Shown piece by piece: positions 39 through 25,382 of a DNA stretch of 27,093 bases. A model generated the notes under the pieces. The model saw only the letters and a program-made list of their open reading frames with translations. It was not told where the DNA came from and searched no databases. Source of the DNA: a virus; the IMG/VR virus record IMGVR_UViG_3300033148_001517, positions 1 through 27,093 of that record; one strand, written 5' to 3'. Each line of letters starts with the position of its first letter. Position 1 is the first letter of the stretch. The position numbers and the translations under genes are program-made.

Positions 39-1517
39 TCAGCCCTGCATTATATTCACTGTACTCATATTAAACTTATCACTATATATAGCATATCTTA
101 ATGCCGCCATAAGATCCCAATGCGTTCCCATAGTATCCTTAACAAATGGATCCTTGGCGTTCTTGCTCTGGTCCTGTTTATAGCGAATACGAGTAATCTG
201 TCGGATCAACTCTTCGAGCTCCTGGTTAATGTACAGCTTCGGGCGATTATTGTAACCCGTTGGTGTTAGTAACTGATTAATATACTTGATCGAAGGGGCA
301 ACAGCATTATCCGCCTTGGATATGTCATAATCATAATCGATAATGTAATCGTTAAGCGTTTGGGCTGCTGCGGGATCACCATATCTCATATCCATATCAC
401 CTTCGAGATTATATTCATGTTCTAGATATGCTCTATGATGCTGAGCTGTAGATTTGTTACTCTCACTATATGCGGCGTGAATGTAATAGCGATCACGTTC
501 TCTATATACCCATATTTGAGCCGTACTATCTGACCATCCAATATCGATACCAGAAATCCATAAGCTCTGACCGGAGAATTTAACCTTAGAGGGGTCGTAT
601 AGATTAGTCTCTCGATCGAATGCATAGAATACATTATCATCCTGTCCGATAAACTCTGCTAGAATCTCCTGACGATACAACATCTCCCCGAGTTCCTTCC
701 GCATCTGCTCAAAGTAAGTAGCAGGGAGAGTAGGATTTGTCATAGATGGAGACGTAAACGACTTCCAGTTGTCTAGATCTAACTCTTTCTCGTAGTATTC
801 AAACAGTTGATTATCGACTCCACGCGACGTTCCAATGAATAAGGCACGTCCATATAGAATACCACTAGGGCGAACACCATAATCCAGCATGGTAGGCGCA
901 AGCATCTGCTTATATATGGTATCAGCATTTGCAATTGACTGGAACTCCTCAAATAATAGCAGCGAGAAGTGTCCACCAAGCGCTGATTCTATATTAGATG
1001 ATGAGTTGGCCGTGAAACGTGATCCGTTTTCGAGCTCAAAGTTGAACTGTCCCTTGTTCATCTGCTTGATTGGCATGCCGAGCTTATTGACCAGCTTCAA
1101 CACTTCGTTGAAAATAATCTTAGCATTGGCGAATGTCGGACATACCAACACGGTTGCGCTGAAGGGAATCAATAGTTCTCTCATTCCGATATGTGCCAAA
1201 CTATATGATTTCCCGAAACGACGTCCAGCGGCTATAACAAAGTTATTATATATGCTGTTTTGACGATCAAAACTATATATGATTGGCTGTTGGCCCGAAT
1301 GAGGTACATTGTCACATAGCTCCCAGACCGTTTTAAGGTCTATATTATCCGTTTGTTGCTGATATAGGAGTATTTCATCGTTTGTTACAACGCGAACCTC
1401 TGAGGCGCCATGGGCGAACCCCATAAAGTATTCAAAGCTACTCTTATCGTCCCCTTCGAGATCAGCATAGGTTGCTCGTTCGTCTTCCGTTAAGGTTGCT
1501 AGTTGTATATTAGTCAT
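39..1517 (-). CDS. terL: Terminase large subunit (packaging ATPase and headful/end nuclease)
   Basis: The motor that translocates phage DNA into the prohead through the portal and cuts it. Seen in the 492-residue product: a Walker A motif GRRFGKS at about residues 98-104, a Walker B-like LLLFEE at 186-191, a coupling motif FIGTSRG near 227-233, then an RNase H-like nuclease domain with candidate metal-binding aspartates in GIDIGW (D325), YGDPAA (D381) and HWDLMAALRYA (D468). Order and length fit terminase large subunits. The ATG overlaps the stop of the upstream Zn-ribbon gene as ATGA, so translation is probably coupled. It is the last complete gene of a leftward four-gene operon and is transcribed away from the portal. 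The Walker B has Glu-Glu where Asp-Glu is more usual. The 38 bases beyond its stop hold no supported gene start. Confidence 0.95.
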   Translation of the reverse strand: MTNIQLATLTEDERATYADLEGDDKSSFEYFMGFAHGASEVRVVTNDEILLYQQQTDNIDLKTVWELCDNVPHSGQQPIIYSFDRQNSIYNNFVIAAGRRFGKSYSLAHIGMRELLIPFSATVLVCPTFANAKIIFNEVLKLVNKLGMPIKQMNKGQFNFELENGSRFTANSSSNIESALGGHFSLLLFEEFQSIANADTIYKQMLAPTMLDYGVRPSGILYGRALFIGTSRGVDNQLFEYYEKELDLDNWKSFTSPSMTNPTLPATYFEQMRKELGEMLYRQEILAEFIGQDDNVFYAFDRETNLYDPSKVKFSGQSLWISGIDIGWSDSTAQIWVYRERDRYYIHAAYSESNKSTAQHHRAYLEHEYNLEGDMDMRYGDPAAAQTLNDYIIDYDYDISKADNAVAPSIKYINQLLTPTGYNNRPKLYINQELEELIRQITRIRYKQDQSKNAKDPFVKDTMGTHWDLMAALRYAIYSDKFNMSTVNIMQG

Positions 1518-1729: not shown

Positions 1730-1947
1730 TCGTTCTCCTTAATAACTATAGCTGCTTTCACCAGAGCTATATTGTCGTCTAGGGCAATTAGTAACCTATC
1801 CTGGTAGTCTCCAGCTTGCTTTAATAACATAAGCTTCTCTTTGTCAAAATCATCATATATCTCGTCTATCAAATCGACTTCTGAGGATAATGCTGTGCGT
1901 TCCCAACTCTCGCCGTTAAATGCGATTTGTGCTTCTTCTCTAGTCAT
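1726..1947 (-). CDS. Hypothetical 73-residue acidic protein in terminase operon
   Basis: A small, acidic, probably alpha-helical protein. It has no membrane segment, cysteine or recognisable motif. A good ribosome site, AAGGAG, lies just upstream of its ATG, which itself lies 8 bases inside the end of the small terminase gene. Its stop overlaps the next start as ATGA. Both junctions make it a real member of the leftward operon rather than a chance reading frame. Function unknown. Confidence 0.75.
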   Translation of the reverse strand: MTREEAQIAFNGESWERTALSSEVDLIDEIYDDFDKEKLMLLKQAGDYQDRLLIALDDNIALVKAAIVIKENE

Positions 1948-2419
1948 CTATACTCCTTGGTATTACGTCTGTTACCACAGGTACGTCTATAGCTTCCGCA
2001 TCGCGTTGCTGGATCACGTTGATCTTCTGATATATGATCGCCATAGGATCTTTAGCGGCATCCTCGCTGGCGCTCGTACCCTTAAGCATATCCTGTAGCG
2101 TCTTAGCGATCTCTATATGATCCTTCTTGGTACTGTTACCCAAGCGCTTGTCCTCATCCTTATCGATAATATCCATCTTATCCCGGAGTGTAGCCGCTAC
2201 GACCTCTGTAGCATACGTTAACATCTGCTCTTTACGTGCCATCTTGAGTTCTGCTAGGTATTCCTTCACACCCTTCTTTGCTAAAAGTTGAGCTACTGCC
2301 TGAACTGGTATTCCAAGACTATCTGCTACGCTTGACCGACTTGTATTGGTTGCAAGCTGCATTAGTATCTCATTCTCTATCATACTCAATGCTGGAGCAC
2401 TAATTACATCATTTGTCAT
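1940..2419 (-). CDS. terS: Probable terminase small subunit (DNA recognition)
   Basis: First gene of the leftward operon, 159 residues. The N-terminal third reads as a helix-turn-helix: helices around the stretch SSVADSLGIPVQAVAQLL, about residues 29-46. It is followed by a long charged helical region (about residues 50-115) and a loose C-terminus, the usual build of small terminase subunits: DNA-binding head, oligomerisation helices and a tail contacting the large subunit. The ribosome site AAAGGA precedes the ATG. The call rests on this architecture and on sharing an operon with the large subunit; sequence alone does not prove it. An alternative is a generic HTH regulator. Confidence 0.72.
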   Translation of the reverse strand: MTNDVISAPALSMIENEILMQLATNTSRSSVADSLGIPVQAVAQLLAKKGVKEYLAELKMARKEQMLTYATEVVAATLRDKMDIIDKDEDKRLGNSTKKDHIEIAKTLQDMLKGTSASEDAAKDPMAIIYQKINVIQQRDAEAIDVPVVTDVIPRSIDD

Positions 2420-2476
2420 GTTTTATCCTTTAATACGTTTTATTTTTGTCGCCCGGAGACTTATACTGATATATCT

Positions 2477-2505
2477 ACTATATCTGGTACTAATCAGGTA
2501 GTCAC
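2477..2505 (-). promoter_or_regulatory. Leftward sigma70-like promoter of the terminase operon
   Basis: Read on the minus strand, GTGACT (2505-2500) and TATAGT (2482-2477) are separated by exactly 17 bases, giving 4/6 and 5/6 matches to the sigma70 boxes. Transcription would start near 2470, leaving a leader of about 50 bases before the terminase small subunit ATG at 2419. The spacer holds one arm of a 14-bp inverted repeat, an operator-like placement. Seen in sequence; activity is inferred. Confidence 0.5.
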
Positions 2506-2541
2506 AGTCTATCGCTGCTATACTTACCTGATTAGTACTAG
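2484..2541. repeat. 14-bp perfect inverted repeat overlapping the leftward promoter
   Basis: GTACTAATCAGGTA at 2487-2500 and its exact reverse complement at 2525-2538 are separated by 24 bases. With one mismatch the arms grow to 17 bp (2484-2500 and 2525-2541). The left arm fills most of the spacer between the -10 and -35 boxes of the leftward promoter, and the right arm lies just upstream of the -35. This looks like paired operator sites for a dimeric regulator, though an RNA hairpin is not excluded. Confidence 0.7.
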
Positions 2542-2543
2542 TG

Positions 2544-2708
2544 TAAGGTTACCTCTATCGTTTTATCCGTTCGCCCGCCGGCTCTCTACTCTGTATATTA
2601 CATCAAAAGTGGTCTTTACCACACTTTTGACAGAGATTTGGTCAAATTCTTTTGTTTTTAAGCTATATTTAAGGTTAAACACCTCTTTTTAAGTTTCCTT
2701 TAAGGTTA
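2544..2708 (+). repeat. Three direct copies of TAAGGTTA
   Basis: The octamer TAAGGTTA occurs in the same orientation at 2544-2551, 2670-2677 and 2701-2708. The last two are part of an 11-base repeat TTTAAGGTTAA starting 31 bases apart. They lie in or next to the AT-rich core between the arms of the long inverted repeat. They could be iteron-like protein sites, but in such AT-rich DNA short repeats also arise by chance. Confidence 0.4.
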
Positions 2709-2839
2709 AGATATTAACTAATATTAGGAAGAAAATTATACTAAATTAAGCAAAATCTCGTTAAAATGTGTAAAATCTTAACGAATTTGACCAAATCTCT
2801 GTCAAAAGTGTGGTAAAGACCACTTTTGATGTAATATAC
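2593..2839. repeat. 57-bp perfect inverted repeat with AT-rich 133-base centre
   Basis: The segment 2593-2649 is the exact reverse complement of 2783-2839, 57 of 57 bases. The 133-base centre (2650-2782) is very AT-rich. Each arm contains its own imperfect dyad: in the right arm TCAAAAGTG (2802-2810) pairs with CACTTTTGA (2821-2829), with GGT/ACC next to an AAAG loop. The arms are therefore identical, outward-facing modules, one toward the terminase operon and one toward the portal operon. The inner ends are bounded by a further TCGTTAA (2758-2764) and TTAACGA (2778-2784) pair. No target-site duplication flanks the element. Candidate roles are a two-way control element or a replication or packaging site. 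The rest of the gene-free interval 2420-2874 holds the promoter, short repeats and TATAAT box listed separately. Confidence 0.9.
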
Positions 2840-2841
2840 TA

Positions 2842-2847
2842 TATAAT
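2842..2847 (+). promoter_or_regulatory. Rightward TATAAT box before the structural operon
   Basis: A perfect TATAAT lies just outside the right arm of the long inverted repeat and about 28 bases before the first structural ATG at 2875. No good -35 is found at 16-18 bases; the expected position falls inside the dyad at 2802-2829. A protein bound to that dyad could replace -35 contacts, as activators or phage late factors do. The ribosome site is a strong AAGGGGAGG at about 2862-2870. Confidence 0.4.
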
Positions 2848-2874
2848 AAGACTAGATCACTAAGGGGAGGTGTT

Positions 2875-3225
2875 ATGTCATTTTTTAATACTAAACAAAT
2901 AGCTCTACAAAGAGTGAGTCCATCTTCTTATCTAGAGATTGATGTAGAAACCTCTATATCATACTATATAATAGATCCTGGAAATGCTATCGATCTAACC
3001 TCTGTTGAATATAAGATTGATAAACTATCTGGAAGAGCTACAACAAACGTCATAGCATGGACAGTTTTAAATATAACTGGAATTACTGATGATATTTATC
3101 AACTGGACCTCACATTACCTTCTGCATCTGTAAGCACATCTGACTCTATACAGTTAGTTATAAAAGCTACAGACGCAGACGGTATGGAATACTACCATAA
3201 AGATACGGAGGTAACACCTATATGA
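2875..3225 (+). CDS. Hypothetical small beta-rich structural protein upstream of portal
   Basis: First gene of the rightward structural operon, 116 residues, with a strong ribosome site (AAGGGGAGG). The sequence alternates hydrophobic and polar residues throughout, suggesting an all-beta fold such as an Ig-like or jelly-roll head or tail accessory protein. No signal peptide, membrane segment or catalytic motif is visible. Its stop overlaps the portal ATG as ATGA, so it is probably co-translated with the portal. I do not recognise the family. A small virion or head-completion protein is a guess from position. Confidence 0.75.
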   Translation: MSFFNTKQIALQRVSPSSYLEIDVETSISYYIIDPGNAIDLTSVEYKIDKLSGRATTNVIAWTVLNITGITDDIYQLDLTLPSASVSTSDSIQLVIKATDADGMEYYHKDTEVTPI

Positions 3226-4586
3226 GAAATAAACCGTATCTAAATAACATTCGCTCTAAGCATCCAACAATAGCACAAGATGCTGTTGCTTATGAGTCGG
3301 GTGCAAATAAAACATTCGATGAATTATATTCAAACTATGTACAGTCCGTTGAGACTGTCGATCTAGCTGTCAGAACAATAGCAAATACTGTTTCTTTATG
3401 TAAGATGAAAGTATTTGCTCAAGACTCTGATGGTACACTAAAACCTGCTATACTTGATAACGTTGATATGGACTTTCCAAATGAAACAGATTCGCGTATC
3501 GACTTCATGCGTAAGATCGCTGTTAATATCTGGACACAAGGTGCTGGCCTAATCGTTACAGAAACAAATCAAAGAGCCAAACGTGGAAAGTTTCTAAACT
3601 TCTATAATATGGATATGTCGAAAGTTACTGCGGTATCTGATGGCAAACGTATTATTAGCGAATTCGTGTATACGGCTGAAGATAGTTCAGAGATTAGATA
3701 TAAAGCTGATCAGTGTATATACATTAACGATAGTATCGACCCAACAAACCTATTATATAGTTTATCTCGTTTAAAAAGTTTGAACGATGTATTACTGATG
3801 CAAGCAGGTGTTGTTGGTCAAGCTAAGGGGATGCTAACAGGTGGGGCTAAGAAAGCTTCTATTATCTCAGCCGATACTCCTATATCAGAACGTAATATGA
3901 AAAAGATCAAGACAGAATTTGATTCCTTCATGCAGTCCGCAACGGCTAGTTCGTTCTTTATGAATACGAAGTTAGACGTGCAACAAATTGGTAACGCGAT
4001 GACTGGTGGGGAAGTGTTATCTCTATTTACAGAGATTAACGAAACAATCCTAAAGCATTTTGCTATTCCGTCATTCTTACTTGGTGTTACCTCGAAAGGT
4101 GCAAATAAAACTGAAGAGGTCTCACTATTATTAAGAACGTTTTTTAATAGTCAGTTGGCTCCGGTTCTTAATAACATTGAATTACACTTTACTCGTTTCT
4201 TTAGAGAACAACTTGCGTTAGAAAACTTTGTAGTTAAGTTTGACTATTCGGATCTTAATATTCTTAAGATGCCTGAAGAGATTCAAGTTGAGTTAACTAC
4301 TAAGAAACATAAAGCTGGTCTAATCACATTGAACGAAGCCCGTGAGATGATGGAACTTCCTAAACGCGAGGATGAAGCTGCTGATAAGATTTACATGCCT
4401 GCTTATTTATTAGGCGCTGCTCCTGTATCCTACGACGACTATGATGCTGACCTTGAGCGTATGCTTAACGTTGCATCTGTAGGCGGAGGTACTGCAGACG
4501 ATCTTCCAACTGGTAACGCTGGGGATGAAGATAATACGTCTGTTACAGACGGTACGCGAGGCGGTGATGCCGAGAAGGAAGCTTAG
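3222..4586 (+). CDS. Portal protein (HK97-type)
   Basis: The dodecameric ring at the special capsid vertex through which DNA enters and to which the neck attaches. At 454 residues it has a normal size for the phage_portal family. Characteristic stretches are the N-terminal region with LAVRTIANTVSLCKMKVF (about residues 48-65), the central GVVGQAKGMLTGG, and the MTGGEVLSLFTEINETILKHFAIPSFLLG block (about residues 260-288) followed by the long helix ending QLAPVLNNIELHF. The acidic, Gly-rich C-terminus is low-complexity. The start overlaps the upstream stop (ATGA). Its last 20 bases are overlapped by the start of an endonuclease gene, and the prohead protease, normally next to portal, is pushed about 1.1 kb downstream by two endonuclease genes. 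Confidence 0.93.
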   Translation: MRNKPYLNNIRSKHPTIAQDAVAYESGANKTFDELYSNYVQSVETVDLAVRTIANTVSLCKMKVFAQDSDGTLKPAILDNVDMDFPNETDSRIDFMRKIAVNIWTQGAGLIVTETNQRAKRGKFLNFYNMDMSKVTAVSDGKRIISEFVYTAEDSSEIRYKADQCIYINDSIDPTNLLYSLSRLKSLNDVLLMQAGVVGQAKGMLTGGAKKASIISADTPISERNMKKIKTEFDSFMQSATASSFFMNTKLDVQQIGNAMTGGEVLSLFTEINETILKHFAIPSFLLGVTSKGANKTEEVSLLLRTFFNSQLAPVLNNIELHFTRFFREQLALENFVVKFDYSDLNILKMPEEIQVELTTKKHKAGLITLNEAREMMELPKREDEAADKIYMPAYLLGAAPVSYDDYDADLERMLNVASVGGGTADDLPTGNAGDEDNTSVTDGTRGGDAEKEA

Positions 4587-4914
4587 ATGCATCCATAATG
4601 GTAAGCGTCTCTATTACCCTAGACGACAAACCTTATTATACTATATAAAGTTTGCACCTAAAGGTCGTGCACCAATCTATAAAATAGGTATTACTACTCA
4701 GAGCGTTGAACAACGTTTTAAGTATGAAAAGATACCTTATACGGTAATCTTTACGGTCACTTATTCTGGTGGTCGGGAAGCCTATATAGAAGAGCAACGC
4801 ATACTTCTTGAGTATCATGATTATCTTCTACCATACCAAAAGATACTAAAATCCGGCAATAGCGAATTATTCTATACGGACATTAGACAACATTCAAACA
4901 AAGGTTCTTTATGA
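4567..4914 (+). CDS. Short GIY-YIG-type homing endonuclease (bare catalytic domain)
   Basis: A 115-residue protein with all landmarks of a divergent GIY-YIG nuclease: LLYYIKF (GIY strand), YKIGIT (YIG strand), an Arg after it (QRFKY), a Glu in YIEEQ and an Asn in GNSELF. The same domain, with LLYYIKF, YKIGIT and GNSELF conserved, forms the C-terminal half of the protein at 12242-12976, so the two are paralogues. The zinc-binding DNA-recognition repeats of that relative are absent here. I chose ATG 4567 (upstream GAGG) over an earlier ATG at 4525 because the earlier one has no ribosome site and lies well inside portal. It overlaps portal by 20 bases and the next endonuclease by ATGA. It could be a truncated, possibly inactive remnant. 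Confidence 0.7.
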   Translation: MPRRKLRCIHNGKRLYYPRRQTLLYYIKFAPKGRAPIYKIGITTQSVEQRFKYEKIPYTVIFTVTYSGGREAYIEEQRILLEYHDYLLPYQKILKSGNSELFYTDIRQHSNKGSL

Positions 4915-5690
4915 TTTATAACGTTACTAAAGAAGACTCTTCGAAGTCTGGTATCTATATTATAAAGAATTCGATTGACGATCGTATCTATATAGGGAGT
5001 ACTATGAATATTAAAAGACGTTACACCCAACACTTAGGTACCCTACAACGAAGTGAGCATCAAAACCAGTATTTACAGAACTTTGTTAATAAGTATGGAC
5101 TAGATATACTAAGCTTCCAGACTTTAGAGTTATGTACCCCAGGCCGGCTACTACAATGTGAACAATCTTATATAGATTCCTACGACTTTAATAAGGATTT
5201 ATTTAACCTAACACCTACAGCCGGTAGTACATTAGGTTTAAAGTGGTCAGACGAAAGTAGAAAACGCTTAAGTAACTCTATTAAGTCAAAGGCGAACACT
5301 GAGAAGCGTAGAGCTGTTGTAAGAGCTGACAGTACACTCGTTTCTAAGTACTTGCGAGTTATAGCGATGTTAGACGGTACAAGGTCGGTGCGGGAAGTGT
5401 CAAGATCTTTAGACCTGCCCTATAGTGACGTCAATACTATACTAAATAGGAGAGCTTATACCTGGTTAATAGATGAATTAGTACAGAAATTTGGTATATT
5501 ACACCCTAGAAAGTTATCACGGCATGACTATACTACGAGAAATCTCTCGACTATCACTCCAGAAGTACTCCTTCGTATGTTATCACTACGTAACGACGGA
5601 TTATCCTACACTGCTATAGCTTCCGCAGTTGGTATTAAGTCAGGTACTACGGTATCAAATCATATAAGGAAATTTAATGAAACAGGTTAA
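4911..5690 (+). CDS. GIY-YIG homing endonuclease with NUMOD and HTH region
   Basis: A free-standing mobile endonuclease of 259 residues. The catalytic domain is at the N-terminus: GIYIIKN (14-20), RIYIGS (25-30), Arg in IKRRY (about 34-38), Glu in CEQSYID (E84) and Asn in FNLTPTAG. Then comes a NUMOD3-like DNA-binding motif, GLKWSDESRKRLSNS (about 109-123). Last are two helix-turn-helix-like segments, one near SVREVSRSLDLPYSDVNTILN and one near the C-terminus (SYTAIASAVGIKSGTTVSNHI). This order is classic for segment-type phage homing nucleases. It is overlapped at its start (ATGA) by the short GIY-YIG gene, and its last 14 bases contain the start of the prohead protease, whose ribosome site lies inside it. 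Both insertions were thus fitted without breaking the operon. Confidence 0.9.
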   Translation: MIYNVTKEDSSKSGIYIIKNSIDDRIYIGSTMNIKRRYTQHLGTLQRSEHQNQYLQNFVNKYGLDILSFQTLELCTPGRLLQCEQSYIDSYDFNKDLFNLTPTAGSTLGLKWSDESRKRLSNSIKSKANTEKRRAVVRADSTLVSKYLRVIAMLDGTRSVREVSRSLDLPYSDVNTILNRRAYTWLIDELVQKFGILHPRKLSRHDYTTRNLSTITPEVLLRMLSLRNDGLSYTAIASAVGIKSGTTVSNHIRKFNETG

Positions 5691-8162: not shown

Positions 8163-8224
8163 TTTAACAATAACTATGTACATCTGCCGTTGTGGGCATG
8201 AGGGTGTACATAGTTATTGTTAAA
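8163..8224 (+). repeat. 20-bp perfect inverted repeat, long hairpin between capsid and HNH genes
   Basis: The 20 bases 8163-8182 are perfectly complementary to 8205-8224. The 22-base interior contains a second small stem, TGCC (8185-8188) with GGCA (8195-8198). The hairpin begins 3 bases after the UUCG hairpin and ends 11 bases before the ribosome site of the HNH gene. It lacks a T-tract. It may block 3' exonucleases, attenuate the endonuclease or mark an insertion boundary. Confidence 0.8.
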
Positions 8225-8245
8225 TCAAATACACAAAGGATGACA

Positions 8246-8899
8246 ATGTTAAGGAAATGCAAAACATGTAGCCTAGAAGCTACTACAGAGGAAGATTTAG
8301 AGTTATTTGTTAAAGATAGTTCGATGTTATATGATAGATCAAATACGTGTAAGACGTGTCGTCAAACAGAGCGTAGAGAGCGTGACATTACTAATAAAGA
8401 ACACAACGCTAAACGTGCTGCTAACTGGTATCAAGAAAATCTTGAGGAGCGTCGTGCTTACGGCAAGCGCTACAATATAGAACACAATACTGAGCGTAAA
8501 GCGTACCGTAAACAATATCGTGAGGATAACAAAGAAGAGTTAGCACGTCAGAATGTTGAGTATCATCAAAAGAATCCTGAGAAGTTGAAAGCACGTTCAG
8601 CCAAATACAGAGCCGCTAAGCGTTTCCAAACACCTGAGTTAACAGCGAACGAAAAGTATAAGATACAACTTCTTTATAAGATCGCATTAAACATCGAGAA
8701 GCAGACCAGCGTAGCCATGCATGTCGATCATATCGTGCCGATCGCTAAGGGTGGATTACACCACCCACTAAACTTACGCGTTATCACGACTGAGGAAAAT
8801 CTTAGTAAGTCCGACGAATTACCAACGCTATCTGCTGAGCTTATAGCTCTTCATAGTGATTATTACGGGACCAATAATAGTTGGTCAAACACAAAATAA
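8246..8899 (+). CDS. HNH homing endonuclease
   Basis: A free-standing mobile nuclease of 217 residues inserted between the capsid gene and a small head gene. The N-terminus has a four-Cys zinc site (C5, C8, C35, C38). The middle is a highly basic, repetitive helical region rich in Arg, Lys, Tyr and Glu (about 45-125), with several NRxxYRxxN-like units that probably grip DNA. The C-terminus is an HNH domain: VDHIVPIAKGG (D161, H162), then HHPLNLRVI (N177) and ENLSKSD (N185). ATG 8246 was chosen because AAAGGA lies 5 bases before it. Reading frames beginning at 8192 would start inside the long hairpin with no ribosome site. Confidence 0.9.
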   Translation: MLRKCKTCSLEATTEEDLELFVKDSSMLYDRSNTCKTCRQTERRERDITNKEHNAKRAANWYQENLEERRAYGKRYNIEHNTERKAYRKQYREDNKEELARQNVEYHQKNPEKLKARSAKYRAAKRFQTPELTANEKYKIQLLYKIALNIEKQTSVAMHVDHIVPIAKGGLHHPLNLRVITTEENLSKSDELPTLSAELIALHSDYYGTNNSWSNTK

Positions 8900-12241: not shown

Positions 12242-12976
12242 ATGGGTAAGAGAGTAACAACGAATCAATTTATCAAAAAGGCTATTATATTACACGGTAT
12301 TAAGTACGGGTACGACACTGTAGACTATGTATCAGCAAAAACTAAAGTAACAATTATGTGTAAAGAGCACGGAGAATTTGAACAGACTCCAAATAACCAT
12401 CTATCTGGTAAAGGTTGTAGAGATTGCAGATCATCACTAAATAGTACAAGACTCTCCAGTAATACCACCACTTTTATCAACAAAGCTATTAATACTCATG
12501 GCAATCGTTATGATTATACAAAAGTGGTCTATAGTAGAAGTTGGAATAAAGTGACTATAACTTGTAGTGTACATGGAGACTTTCAACAGACACCAAATTC
12601 TCATCTTATGGGTAGTGGGTGTAAACAATGTGCACAAGCATTAACACGTAAGAAATATTTTAAAGAACCTACACTGTTATATTATATAAAATTTGTGGTA
12701 CCTAGTGGCACCTTTTACAAAATCGGGATTACCCTAAAGCGTATAGGGATCAAAAATCGCTATAGAGGGTTAGGATATCCGCCGCATATAATCATTAAAT
12801 CTTGGTTATTCGAAACCGGTAGAGGGGCTTATCAGATGGAGCAGATGCTGCTAGAGGATTTTAGTAATTCTTGTTACGTAGGAAACCCAATACTACGGGA
12901 TGGCAACTCCGAGCTCTTCACAAAAGATATATTAAATCTTGATACACCACTCAGGGATAGCACAGCGGTAGTGTAA
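12242..12976 (+). CDS. GIY-YIG homing endonuclease with two zinc-binding repeats
   Basis: 244 residues in three parts. Residues about 18-62 and 86-130 are tandem copies of one module: HGxxYxY, then VTIxC...HGxFxQTPNxHLxGxGCxxC. Each carries a probable zinc set (C40/H43/C59/C62 and C108/H111/C127/C130), the DUF723-like DNA-binding unit often attached to phage endonucleases. Residues about 145-230 are a divergent GIY-YIG domain: LLYYIKF, YKIGIT, R173, E200 in YQMEQ and N222 in GNSELF. It is the full-length relative of the short gene at 4567-4914. Start ATG 12242 has AGGAG in front and an extended -10 upstream. The last 26 bases, including the stop, lie inside tRNA-Gln. It has no part in tail assembly and is a mobile insertion. 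Confidence 0.88.
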   Translation: MGKRVTTNQFIKKAIILHGIKYGYDTVDYVSAKTKVTIMCKEHGEFEQTPNNHLSGKGCRDCRSSLNSTRLSSNTTTFINKAINTHGNRYDYTKVVYSRSWNKVTITCSVHGDFQQTPNSHLMGSGCKQCAQALTRKKYFKEPTLLYYIKFVVPSGTFYKIGITLKRIGIKNRYRGLGYPPHIIIKSWLFETGRGAYQMEQMLLEDFSNSCYVGNPILRDGNSELFTKDILNLDTPLRDSTAVV

Positions 12977-13025
12977 CAGTTTTTGGTACTGTAGGCCGTA
13001 GGTTCGAATCCTACTCCCTGAACCA
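12951..13025 (+). tRNA. tRNA-Gln (anticodon UUG)
   Basis: A complete 75-base tRNA with encoded CCA. Acceptor stem TCAGGGA/TCCCTGA (7 of 7); D arm GCAC/GTGT with G18-G19 in the loop; anticodon stem ACAGT/ACTGT with loop TTTTGGT, giving anticodon TTG and G37; T arm GTAGG/CCTAC with TTCGAAT. The first pair is U1-A72, usual for Gln tRNAs. It reads the CAA codon, which is common in these genes. It overlaps the end of an endonuclease gene and lies 115 bases before the next coding region; the 13026-13140 interval shows no second tRNA or clear terminator. Confidence 0.96.
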
Positions 13026-22297: not shown

Positions 22298-24727
22298 ATG
22301 GCAATAGAAACAATAATAACAGCGATACCTGAACCAGGACATCGTGGGGTCGATGCTAGAGATACATTTGTAACGAAGCAAGAAGCCTTTCAAGATGCTT
22401 TATATGGTACGACTGTAGATGAGATGAATGATGTCGCGACGGAGATGAATACAATAGCGGATGAGGTAGAAGCAGATAAAGATACTGTAGCAGCTGATAA
22501 AGCAGTTGTTGTAGAAAAAGAAGCTCTAATGAATCCTCATTATACAGAGATTGGTATATGTGCGGACAACATAGGGGACATAAATGCTGTAGGAACGGCT
22601 ATAATAAGTAGTAATACGCAATTAATAGAAGCAAACAGTTCAGCTTATGGATACACAGTAATGGCTAAAAAAGATGCTAGATGGTTAGAAACAGATACAC
22701 CAAATGTAATCGTTGATAAGCTTGGGGATGATTGTAGGTTTCTTGATGGGTTGTATAGTAGACTTGGGGATGAAAAAGTTGCTAATGGGACTTTCGATAG
22801 TGATACTACAGGATGGACTCAAGAAAGCGGTGCTACCATCTCTTCGGAGAATGGAAAACTAAAAATAGATGGTAATGCAGGGAAAGGGGCTTATCAATTA
22901 TTGAGTAGTGTTACTACTGTAGATAAGACATATCTTGTTTCCTTTACAGGTATGCTTGAAACATCAACAGATGGTTATGTTATGATATATAACGGTACAG
23001 CATTGGAGACAGTTTACTTAGATGGTGCTACTGAACTAGAGTTTACATTCACAAGAGCAAGTGAGTCAGCCATTTCTCTATATGCCAGAACTTGGGACGA
23101 GGGGGTTATGTATTTCGACAATATCTCAGTAAAAGAACTCCCACAAGCAGAATTACCTGATACACCATTCGCAAGTGGTTCAACAGATGAACTACTAGAT
23201 GATGCAGTTAATGGTGTTGAGACACAGTCAGACCATAGTGTAGGGGATATAATTGTTACTGGTAATGAGTTGGTTACTAATGATGTTGTTGGTGATTGGG
23301 ATACATCAGATGGAGTTACTTCTTTTACAGTAACAGATGGAGAGATTGACCTTGCTGTTACTTCAATATCTGGTGGTGGAATATTTCAAGTTATTTCAAC
23401 GATAATTGGAGAAACATATTTATTTTCTATAAATGTAAGTGCTTTTAGTGGTGGAGCAAGTATATATATTGAAAAAACTCATAAAGGTGCAGACTTACTA
23501 GTTCTTCCATTATCTGATACTGGGATATATGCTGGTGCTTTTGTTGCAACTGGGACAACGGCATATCTTAATATTAGAGAGGCAGGTGCAACTGATACTT
23601 GTGCGATAACTGCTAATAACGTCTCAGTAACCCTAAAAGACACAATCTACCAAAACATAGTAGCATCAACAGCAGATGATTTACTTACAGATACAGAGAA
23701 GTTCCAAGTGCTTACAAGAGTAACAAGAAAAGACTTAATCCTTATCACTAAGACAGGATACAAAACTGTTAAAGGTTTACACCTATTTGAAGCTAATGTT
23801 TCTAATGATGCAATTGCTGTTGAATATGGTTATTCTAAGTTAGGCAATGGTTTATATCATGATGGTACAGAGGAAGTTATTATTGCTGGTTTAGTTGATA
23901 GATTGAATAGTGGAGGATACCATCCTACTTATAATTCATTTGGATGTTCTAAATATGACTATGCAACATTAGGTGCTGCTGGTTCAGGTAACTGGTATGA
24001 TGATTATAGTGGTCAATCTTTTTCTGATTATGTAAAATCTACTTATACTACCTTTATTTATGATGACGACGATAACGGAGATATAGCTGCTAATGTTTCA
24101 GGTAGACCAGAAGAAGACCCTAAATTCTACGACAAAATATACTTCGAGTCTAACGGTGGAATAATCTTTAAACCAACATACACACAACAAGCTAACGAAC
24201 ATGATTTGCTAGCTGAGAATATTGATTTAGATATGGCTGAGAGTTGTGGGGTTGAGACTAGCATAGATATTGATGTGGCTATAACTGATATAGCTGGAGA
24301 TAGTACAGCCGATGCAAGATTTACTGTAGATATAAGTGTATTTGGGGATACATATCAGATAAAACAAGAAGTTGCTGGTGAAGATTGGCTGTTTGAACTA
24401 TTTGGGTATACAGTAGATGCAGCAACAGCAAGGTCATTCAATGATAGAAGTGTTACTGTCTATGATGGAACTGATTTATATTATTTATATGCTAATGGAA
24501 CTCATGGGTGGATGCAGTTAAAGAAATTTAGTGATGATAGTATCCAACAAACAATACCTACAACTTTGACATTCTCTGTAGTTAAAAAAGCCCAACACAA
24601 CCTCACACAAGGTACAACACTATCTATTGATACGATTGGTGACCCTGCTAATTATCCTTCTGATTGGTTATCATATTTAGCTGGTGGTAATAATGTTGAT
24701 TTTAATCTTTTGTTGGTGGAAGCTTAA
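22298..24727 (+). CDS. Tail fibre / receptor-binding-like protein with two lectin-type modules
   Basis: 809 residues, built in blocks. The N-terminus opens with TIITAIPEPGHRGVDARDTFVTKQEAF, a start shared by phage tail-associated fibre proteins. It is followed by a helical coiled segment with VEADKDTVAADKAVVVEKEA (about 50-75). About 160-283 and 318-445 are two beta-sandwich modules of CBM4/9-like type. The first begins VANGTFDSDTTGWTQE and ends FDNISVKEL; the second begins with NELVTNDVVGDWDTSDG and ends NNVSVTLKD. The remainder (about 455-809) holds Gly/Tyr/Asp-rich beta material including YDDYSGQSFSDYV and DDDDNGD, which may bind calcium. The build suggests an exposed fibre or tip protein that binds host surface glycans. 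No pectate-lyase motif was recognised. Confidence 0.72.
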   Translation: MAIETIITAIPEPGHRGVDARDTFVTKQEAFQDALYGTTVDEMNDVATEMNTIADEVEADKDTVAADKAVVVEKEALMNPHYTEIGICADNIGDINAVGTAIISSNTQLIEANSSAYGYTVMAKKDARWLETDTPNVIVDKLGDDCRFLDGLYSRLGDEKVANGTFDSDTTGWTQESGATISSENGKLKIDGNAGKGAYQLLSSVTTVDKTYLVSFTGMLETSTDGYVMIYNGTALETVYLDGATELEFTFTRASESAISLYARTWDEGVMYFDNISVKELPQAELPDTPFASGSTDELLDDAVNGVETQSDHSVGDIIVTGNELVTNDVVGDWDTSDGVTSFTVTDGEIDLAVTSISGGGIFQVISTIIGETYLFSINVSAFSGGASIYIEKTHKGADLLVLPLSDTGIYAGAFVATGTTAYLNIREAGATDTCAITANNVSVTLKDTIYQNIVASTADDLLTDTEKFQVLTRVTRKDLILITKTGYKTVKGLHLFEANVSNDAIAVEYGYSKLGNGLYHDGTEEVIIAGLVDRLNSGGYHPTYNSFGCSKYDYATLGAAGSGNWYDDYSGQSFSDYVKSTYTTFIYDDDDNGDIAANVSGRPEEDPKFYDKIYFESNGGIIFKPTYTQQANEHDLLAENIDLDMAESCGVETSIDIDVAITDIAGDSTADARFTVDISVFGDTYQIKQEVAGEDWLFELFGYTVDAATARSFNDRSVTVYDGTDLYYLYANGTHGWMQLKKFSDDSIQQTIPTTLTFSVVKKAQHNLTQGTTLSIDTIGDPANYPSDWLSYLAGGNNVDFNLLLVEA

Positions 24728-24728
24728 A

Positions 24729-25382
24729 ATGCTAGTAGATAACCAATTAATAAAAGTCAGTTGGAATTGGAAGAGTAAAGAACACTGGCTGTCTAAAGGA
24801 TATTTTCTACCTAAAATGGGTGTTAAGTTTGAAGTTAAAGCAGAAGATTTACAAGCTAGTTCTAATGTGACTGTAGCAATAGAGTGTGATAAATGCTCTG
24901 CTGTGCGACTAGGTAAGGCTTACAGACAAAACAAGTTATGTAGAAGCTGTGCTAAGAAAGGTATTAAACATTCAGATGAGCATAAACGTAGAAACTCTGA
25001 ATGTAAGAAAAAGCTTTATTCTGAACAAGGTCACCACAGGACAGGGTATAAGTATCCAACTCCTCAAGACCACCCTAGTTATAATCCTGATTTATCTGAT
25101 GCAGATAGAGCAGACAGAAGAGGTAATAGAGAGTATAAGCAATGGTCTTATGATGTAAAAATGGCAGGCAATTTTGCTTGTCAAGTATGTGGAGATGATA
25201 AAGGTGGAAATCTAGTTAGTCATCATATAGAGGCTCATAATTCTAATGTGGAATTAAGATACAATGTTAGTAACGGAGTGTGTCTATGTGATACATGCCA
25301 TAAAGACTTTCATTTTCATTTCGGCTATGGTAATAATACCTCAGAGCAGTTTGAACAATATACCGTAGAAAAGGATAAGTAA
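24729..25382 (+). CDS. HNH homing endonuclease between tail fibre genes
   Basis: 217 residues starting at ATG 24729, one base past the fibre gene stop. It is a two-part nuclease. The N-terminus has a Cys-rich zinc finger (ECDKCSA..., then KLCRSCAKKG) and a NUMOD-like basic helix after it (KHSDEHKRRNSECKKK). The C-terminus is a Cys-bearing HNH: CQVCGDD, LVSHHIEAHNSN (metal-binding His pair), RYNVSNGVCLCDTCHKDFHFHFGYGNN. This motif, with its FH-FGYG-N ending, is typical of phage HNH proteins inserted among tail genes. Its stop overlaps the following ATG as TAATG, so it is woven into the tail operon. It is not a structural part. Confidence 0.88.
   Translation: MLVDNQLIKVSWNWKSKEHWLSKGYFLPKMGVKFEVKAEDLQASSNVTVAIECDKCSAVRLGKAYRQNKLCRSCAKKGIKHSDEHKRRNSECKKKLYSEQGHHRTGYKYPTPQDHPSYNPDLSDADRADRRGNREYKQWSYDVKMAGNFACQVCGDDKGGNLVSHHIEAHNSNVELRYNVSNGVCLCDTCHKDFHFHFGYGNNTSEQFEQYTVEKDK

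Follow-up and report, generated by a model that had tools for sequence, protein, structure and literature searches.

A perfect 57-nt inverted repeat between the terminase and portal operons of an uncultured tailed phage, probably made by local inverted copying

The stretch of DNA analyzed here (the window), a 27-kb fragment, comes from an IMG/VR virus record. The probable small (terS) and large (terL) terminase subunit genes are transcribed leftward, and a small ORF followed by the portal, protease, major capsid (MCP), and tail genes is transcribed rightward (Table 1), as the sequence-only reading had described for this divergent terminase/structural setting. The probable terS has no match among PHROGs families. 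The source is a tailed phage, uncultured so far, whose terminase is distantly T5-like; scans of GTDB genomes with TerL and MCP returned no relatives and hence neither a prophage nor a host. The Rfam search identified one tRNA as the only known structured RNA in the window, and none at the repeat described below. A tRNA-Gln (TTG) at 12951-13025 overlaps the end of a probable mobile endonuclease ORF in the tail operon. Homing-endonuclease-like genes are found among the structural genes in the regions 4525-5690, 8192-8899, 12242-12976, and 24684-25382, including a GIY-YIG match (4911-5690) and a weak HNH match (24684-25382), while the endonuclease-like ORF 8192-8899 has no Pfam match. The listed start of the latter ORF is overlapped by a perfect 20-nt inverted repeat (8163-8224), which directly follows the major capsid gene and could mask a ribosome site.

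Table 1. Features of the divergent region and its flanking genes, in window positions
Feature	Position	Strand	Basis
Terminase large subunit gene	39..1517	-	PHROG 2, E 5e-29; 29% identical to T5-like TerL
Probable small terminase subunit gene, 159 aa	1940..2419	-	Adjoins TerL; 61% identity to same-place ORF in L004 (G001)
Left arm (terS side), probably ancestral copy	2593..2649	-	Perfect repeat; top match in 93.6-kb relative is the syntenic terS-side position, same strand
28-nt imperfect dyad in left arm, TCAAAAGTG-N10-CACTTTTGA	2603..2630		Dyad search
AT-rich spacer, orientation as in relatives	2650..2782		78% AT; alignment to relatives
TTTAAGGTTA motif copy 1	2668..2677	+	Exact
TTTAAGGTTA motif copy 2 (AAGTTTCCTTTAAGGTTAAG, near AAAGTTTCTTTAAGGTTACG of relative)	2699..2708	+	Exact
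Right arm (portal side), probably derived inverted copy	2783..2839	+	Perfect copy of left arm; no significant syntenic match in either relative
28-nt imperfect dyad in right arm	2802..2829		Dyad search
First ORF of rightward operon, 116 aa, no assigned function	2875..3225	+	Same-place ORF in L004 and L025
Portal protein gene	3222..4586	+	PHROG 12, E 2e-34

The intergenic region between the two operons contains a long inverted repeat, in which the left arm is identical to the reverse complement of the right arm at 57 of 57 positions. A longer call of the arms (2593-2652 and 2780-2839) gives 60 nt at 98%, and beyond the 57-nt arms identity drops abruptly (9/30 in the outer flanks and 12/30 in the inner flanks). 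By our own arithmetic, such a perfect pair would arise by chance within 300 bases in 27 kb with a probability of order 1e-26; as single-stranded DNA, the arm region folds far better than shuffled sequences (z = -14). The dyad TCAAAAGTG-N10-CACTTTTGA is present once in each arm and nowhere else in the window, and it is absent from shuffled sequences even when 3 mismatches are allowed. These observations agree with the sequence-only reading with respect to the perfect repeat, its AT-rich 133-base centre, and the smaller dyads. That reading also envisaged two identical outward-facing sites, one per operon; the arms are indeed identical, but their placement relative to the genes is not symmetric: 173 nt separate the left arm from the terS ATG, and 35 nt lie between the right arm and the start codon (ATG) of the 116-aa ORF upstream of portal. 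By our count, the centre of the right-arm dyad is located ~26 nt before a TATAAT box lying immediately outside this arm. A second, shorter inverted repeat (2484-2541, 17 nt, 94%) is found in the leader of the terS operon, where the relatives described below likewise fold hairpins, though of different sequence.

The possibility raised beforehand that the repeat is an assembly artefact is unlikely, because the right arm is seen from position 2809 onward in an independent assembly and the left arm has syntenic homology in a relative. The independent contig, IMGVR_UViG_3300033153_003114, has 4 differences from the window in 6,775 bases; being the only close contig known and beginning within the right arm, it does not cover the left arm. 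A search with 22-mers from the arms matched only this near-identical contig, and no assembly spanning both arms was found besides that of the window itself. Position 1 of the contig, which comes from another data set, corresponds to window position 2809, 31 bases from the outer end of the right arm; an assembly break, a hairpin, or a genome end may be the cause of this start.

Two relatives, both from record set 3300028030, are informative for the comparison of this region, namely G001 (93.6 kb; TerL 79% identical) and G003 (44.9 kb; TerL 65% identical), which share the divergent terS/portal layout with the window. The G001 genome has one rightward structural block at 5.9-39.4 kb and almost all of its remaining ORFs are leftward, so the repeat region corresponds to the main divergence point of the genome. 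The portal, protease, and capsid genes of G001 are consecutive and lack endonuclease-like insertions. G001 also encodes a reverse transcriptase (L019 8491-9399, minus strand; RVT_1, E 1e-23), possibly part of a diversity-generating retroelement, and the same 12-bp tandem array is found at both ends of its record, which therefore probably represents a closed circular genome. The arrays at record ends (L015 1-127 and L019 13484-13610 for G001, L032 1-127 for the start of G003) have 12-bp and 46-bp units and are exactly 127 bases long, which is likely the k of the assembler, with the array longer than k. In a further distant relative, L039 (portal 42%), terL and portal share one strand and are not separated by a divergent region, and it is uninformative on the arms; a perfect TTGACA-17-TATAAT precedes its portal operon.

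The syntenic regions of G001 and G003 both lack a long inverted repeat, and no comparable repeat (spacing up to 1 kb; pieces of up to 20 kb searched separately) was identified anywhere in the 138 kb of these two genomes. The terS-side half of the region, arm included, aligns between the window and G001 (p 0.004 relative to shuffled sequences). The same half also aligns when G001 is compared with G003, with a score reached by 0 of 500 shuffles. When the 57-nt arm was compared with both strands of the whole G001 genome, the top score fell at the syntenic terS-side place in the expected orientation, with a small margin (best 32, next 30), and in a composition-matched test 0.03% of comparable segments equalled this score (p 0.0003). 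This result holds under three scoring schemes, although it depends on one informative relative. In contrast, the arm match is at background in the portal-side segments of both G001 and G003 (p 0.13-0.5); in the more distant G003 no arm match is detectable on either side, and within each relative the two sides do not match each other. In a deletion scan of the alignment to G001, removal of the left arm is among the costliest of 499 deletions (ranks 404-464), whereas removal of the right arm ranks about 230 of 499 for G001, with no clear improvement of the alignment, and 4 to 16 for G003. Since the arm matches the terS side of G001 only and both portal sides are at background, we propose that the left arm is probably the original and that the right arm arose from it as an inverted copy in this lineage. 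A perfect repeat of this length had been expected to be either used or recently made, and the one-sided match in the relative favours the latter. Relatives with one arm and identical expression had been named as evidence against a regulatory role; relatives with one arm-like sequence (G001, terS side only) or none detectable (G003) and the same gene order do exist, which goes part of the way towards this.

The centre of the repeat aligns to the relatives in forward orientation. It includes the only two exact copies of TTTAAGGTTA in the window. Three exact copies are present in G003, all in the syntenic region and nowhere else in the record, and none in G001. Just upstream of terS, G003 also has three 22-bp direct repeats, GAAAGTTCGTTTAAGTTTAGTA (L032 5880-5944), of the same family. 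TTTAAGGTTA, which is shared with the more distant relative, looks like a better candidate than the arm pair for a conserved control element or origin.

We consider it probable that the repeat was made by local inverted copying after the split from the known relatives, likely by a short-range template switch during replication. Perfect inverted repeats are a known outcome of such switches, in which the template lies at a distance of tens to hundreds of bases (PMC7954356, PMC8604942, PMC8794818). In the proposed scheme, the strand being synthesized close to the portal-side end of the control region would switch to the nearby complementary strand, copy some 57 bases of terS-side leader/promoter sequence in inverted orientation, and then return, so that the copied segment would replace the original portal-side sequence. 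We infer the switch from what is directly observed, i.e., the perfect copy, its sharp ends, and the match to the terS side only in the closer relative. One arm is a sharply bounded perfect reverse complement of nearby sequence, and one arm appears ancestral in place while the other does not, as judged from one informative relative. Replacement is proposed rather than pure insertion because removal of the right arm gave no clear improvement in the G001 deletion scan. By eye, the portal side of G001 shows the possible microhomologies TTAACGA (inner end) and ATGTAA (outer end), which would be consistent with the switch points. Against inverted copying, there are only two informative relatives, their intergenic region is greatly diverged, and no pre-event sequence is found among them. 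The term "recent" is relative to the split from G001 and does not necessarily mean very recent, since by our own arithmetic up to about 5% differences per site would be compatible with 57 identical bases.

An alternative explanation, which we regard as rather unlikely, is that both arms are old and functional, each facing outward and binding a late activator or repressor of the terS and portal operons, and that they are kept identical by selection together with repeated template-switch or gene-conversion homogenisation. The 28-nt dyad in each arm and the position of the right dyad relative to TATAAT fit this explanation, the latter being suggestive of a place where an activator could act. Likewise, sigma-70 promoters are no more frequent than expected by chance in this region, be it in the window, G001, or G003 (in the window, 5 pairs of -35/-10 boxes at 1900-3300 versus 4.9 expected, none using the arms), which makes an activator-dependent promoter plausible. 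In addition, the arm ends somewhat resemble the portal side of G001 in alignment, leaving room for a possible older imperfect twin site that was later perfected. However, the portal-side match to the relatives is not significant, the two sides of each relative are unlike each other, the dyad is not repeated elsewhere in the window, and its exact matches in IMG/VR (nine stretches) sit in unrelated contexts. A divergent pair of sigma-70 promoters within the arms was rejected, as no properly spaced hexamers use them.

Other readings concern the intergenic region as a whole. That it is a replication origin, with the arms as a part of it and the TTTAAGGTTA copies as iterons, appears improbable. Its AT-rich centre shares a repeated motif with the more distant relative, which has the 22-bp tandem array there, the cumulative GC-skew minimum of the window is near 3.3 kb, and the gene directions of the G001 genome diverge at this point; but the skew follows the coding direction, which also turns here, the G001 minimum is at 91.7 kb, and the relatives manage without the arm pair. 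Direct repeats are shared in the intergenic region, while no initiator was identified and the relatives carry a rival array elsewhere, the 12-bp tandem array at the G001 record ends being another origin candidate. We give very little credence to a packaging or genome-end site (cos, pac, or hairpin telomere): although the repeat adjoins terS and the independent contig begins inside the right arm, the window continues straight through the repeat, the arms are 133 nt apart, unlike a telomere-type contiguous palindrome, relatives with similar terminases lack the arm pair, and the start of that contig may reflect a break in coverage or assembly. The intergenic region as a whole may still serve as an origin or packaging site, but the arm pair is not its conserved part. 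Least probable is an invertible switch, suggested by the sequence-only reading, in which recombination between the arms would flip the 133-bp centre and swap promoters between the operons. While 57-bp inverted repeats could recombine, no tyrosine or serine recombinase match (Phage_integrase, Resolvase) was found in the window, whose genome is incomplete, or in G001 and G003, and the centre has the same orientation as in the relatives; this suggestion therefore finds no support. A MITE or small transposon was also rejected: there is no target-site duplication (ACTCT on one outer flank, TATAT on the other), and the centre belongs to the site, with its motif and orientation common to the same intergenic region of a relative.

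The repeat is largely ordinary; we regard it as real, probably of recent mutational origin, and possibly with a regulatory effect. As a consequence of inverted copying, the portal operon would carry a terS-type dyad module just before its likely -10 box (the TATAAT outside the arm), and one DNA-binding regulator could then act on both operons. We tentatively raise, as a doubtful extension, that one template switch copied a whole regulatory module, a dyad operator with promoter-upstream sequence, from one operon to the opposing one, i.e., promoter capture by inverted copying, which if true would have placed the terminase and structural operons under one regulator through a single mutation. If the copied arm works as a regulatory site, a single copying error would have rewired the control of two operons in a natural phage; if the arm is passive, the repeat would still show, in an uncultured phage lineage, that a perfect inverted repeat may have arisen recently and need not imply a conserved function.

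Among known systems, the T5-like phages are the nearest by TerL, with 29% identity over 83% of its length, and genes for a family A polymerase, a DnaB-type helicase, and a ligase are present in the relative G001; however, INPHARED gave no nucleotide match to the window (first 9 kb searched) and no MCP match. By analogy, late promoters with a phage activator, such as the Mu C protein (PMC4461284), have a dyad near a -10-like box before late operons; here, an activator would be hypothetical, and the exact dyad does not occur at other sites in the window. The repeat also resembles the products of the short-range template switch in the four-point model and in bacterial quasipalindrome correction (PMC7954356, PMC8604942, PMC7202029), which likewise involve a local reverse-complement copy, a perfect repeat, and one ancestral arm, although for our case no close relative preserving the earlier state was found. 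In the classical bacterial examples, a near-palindrome that is already there becomes perfect, whereas the 57-nt arm of this phage appears to replace unlike sequence.
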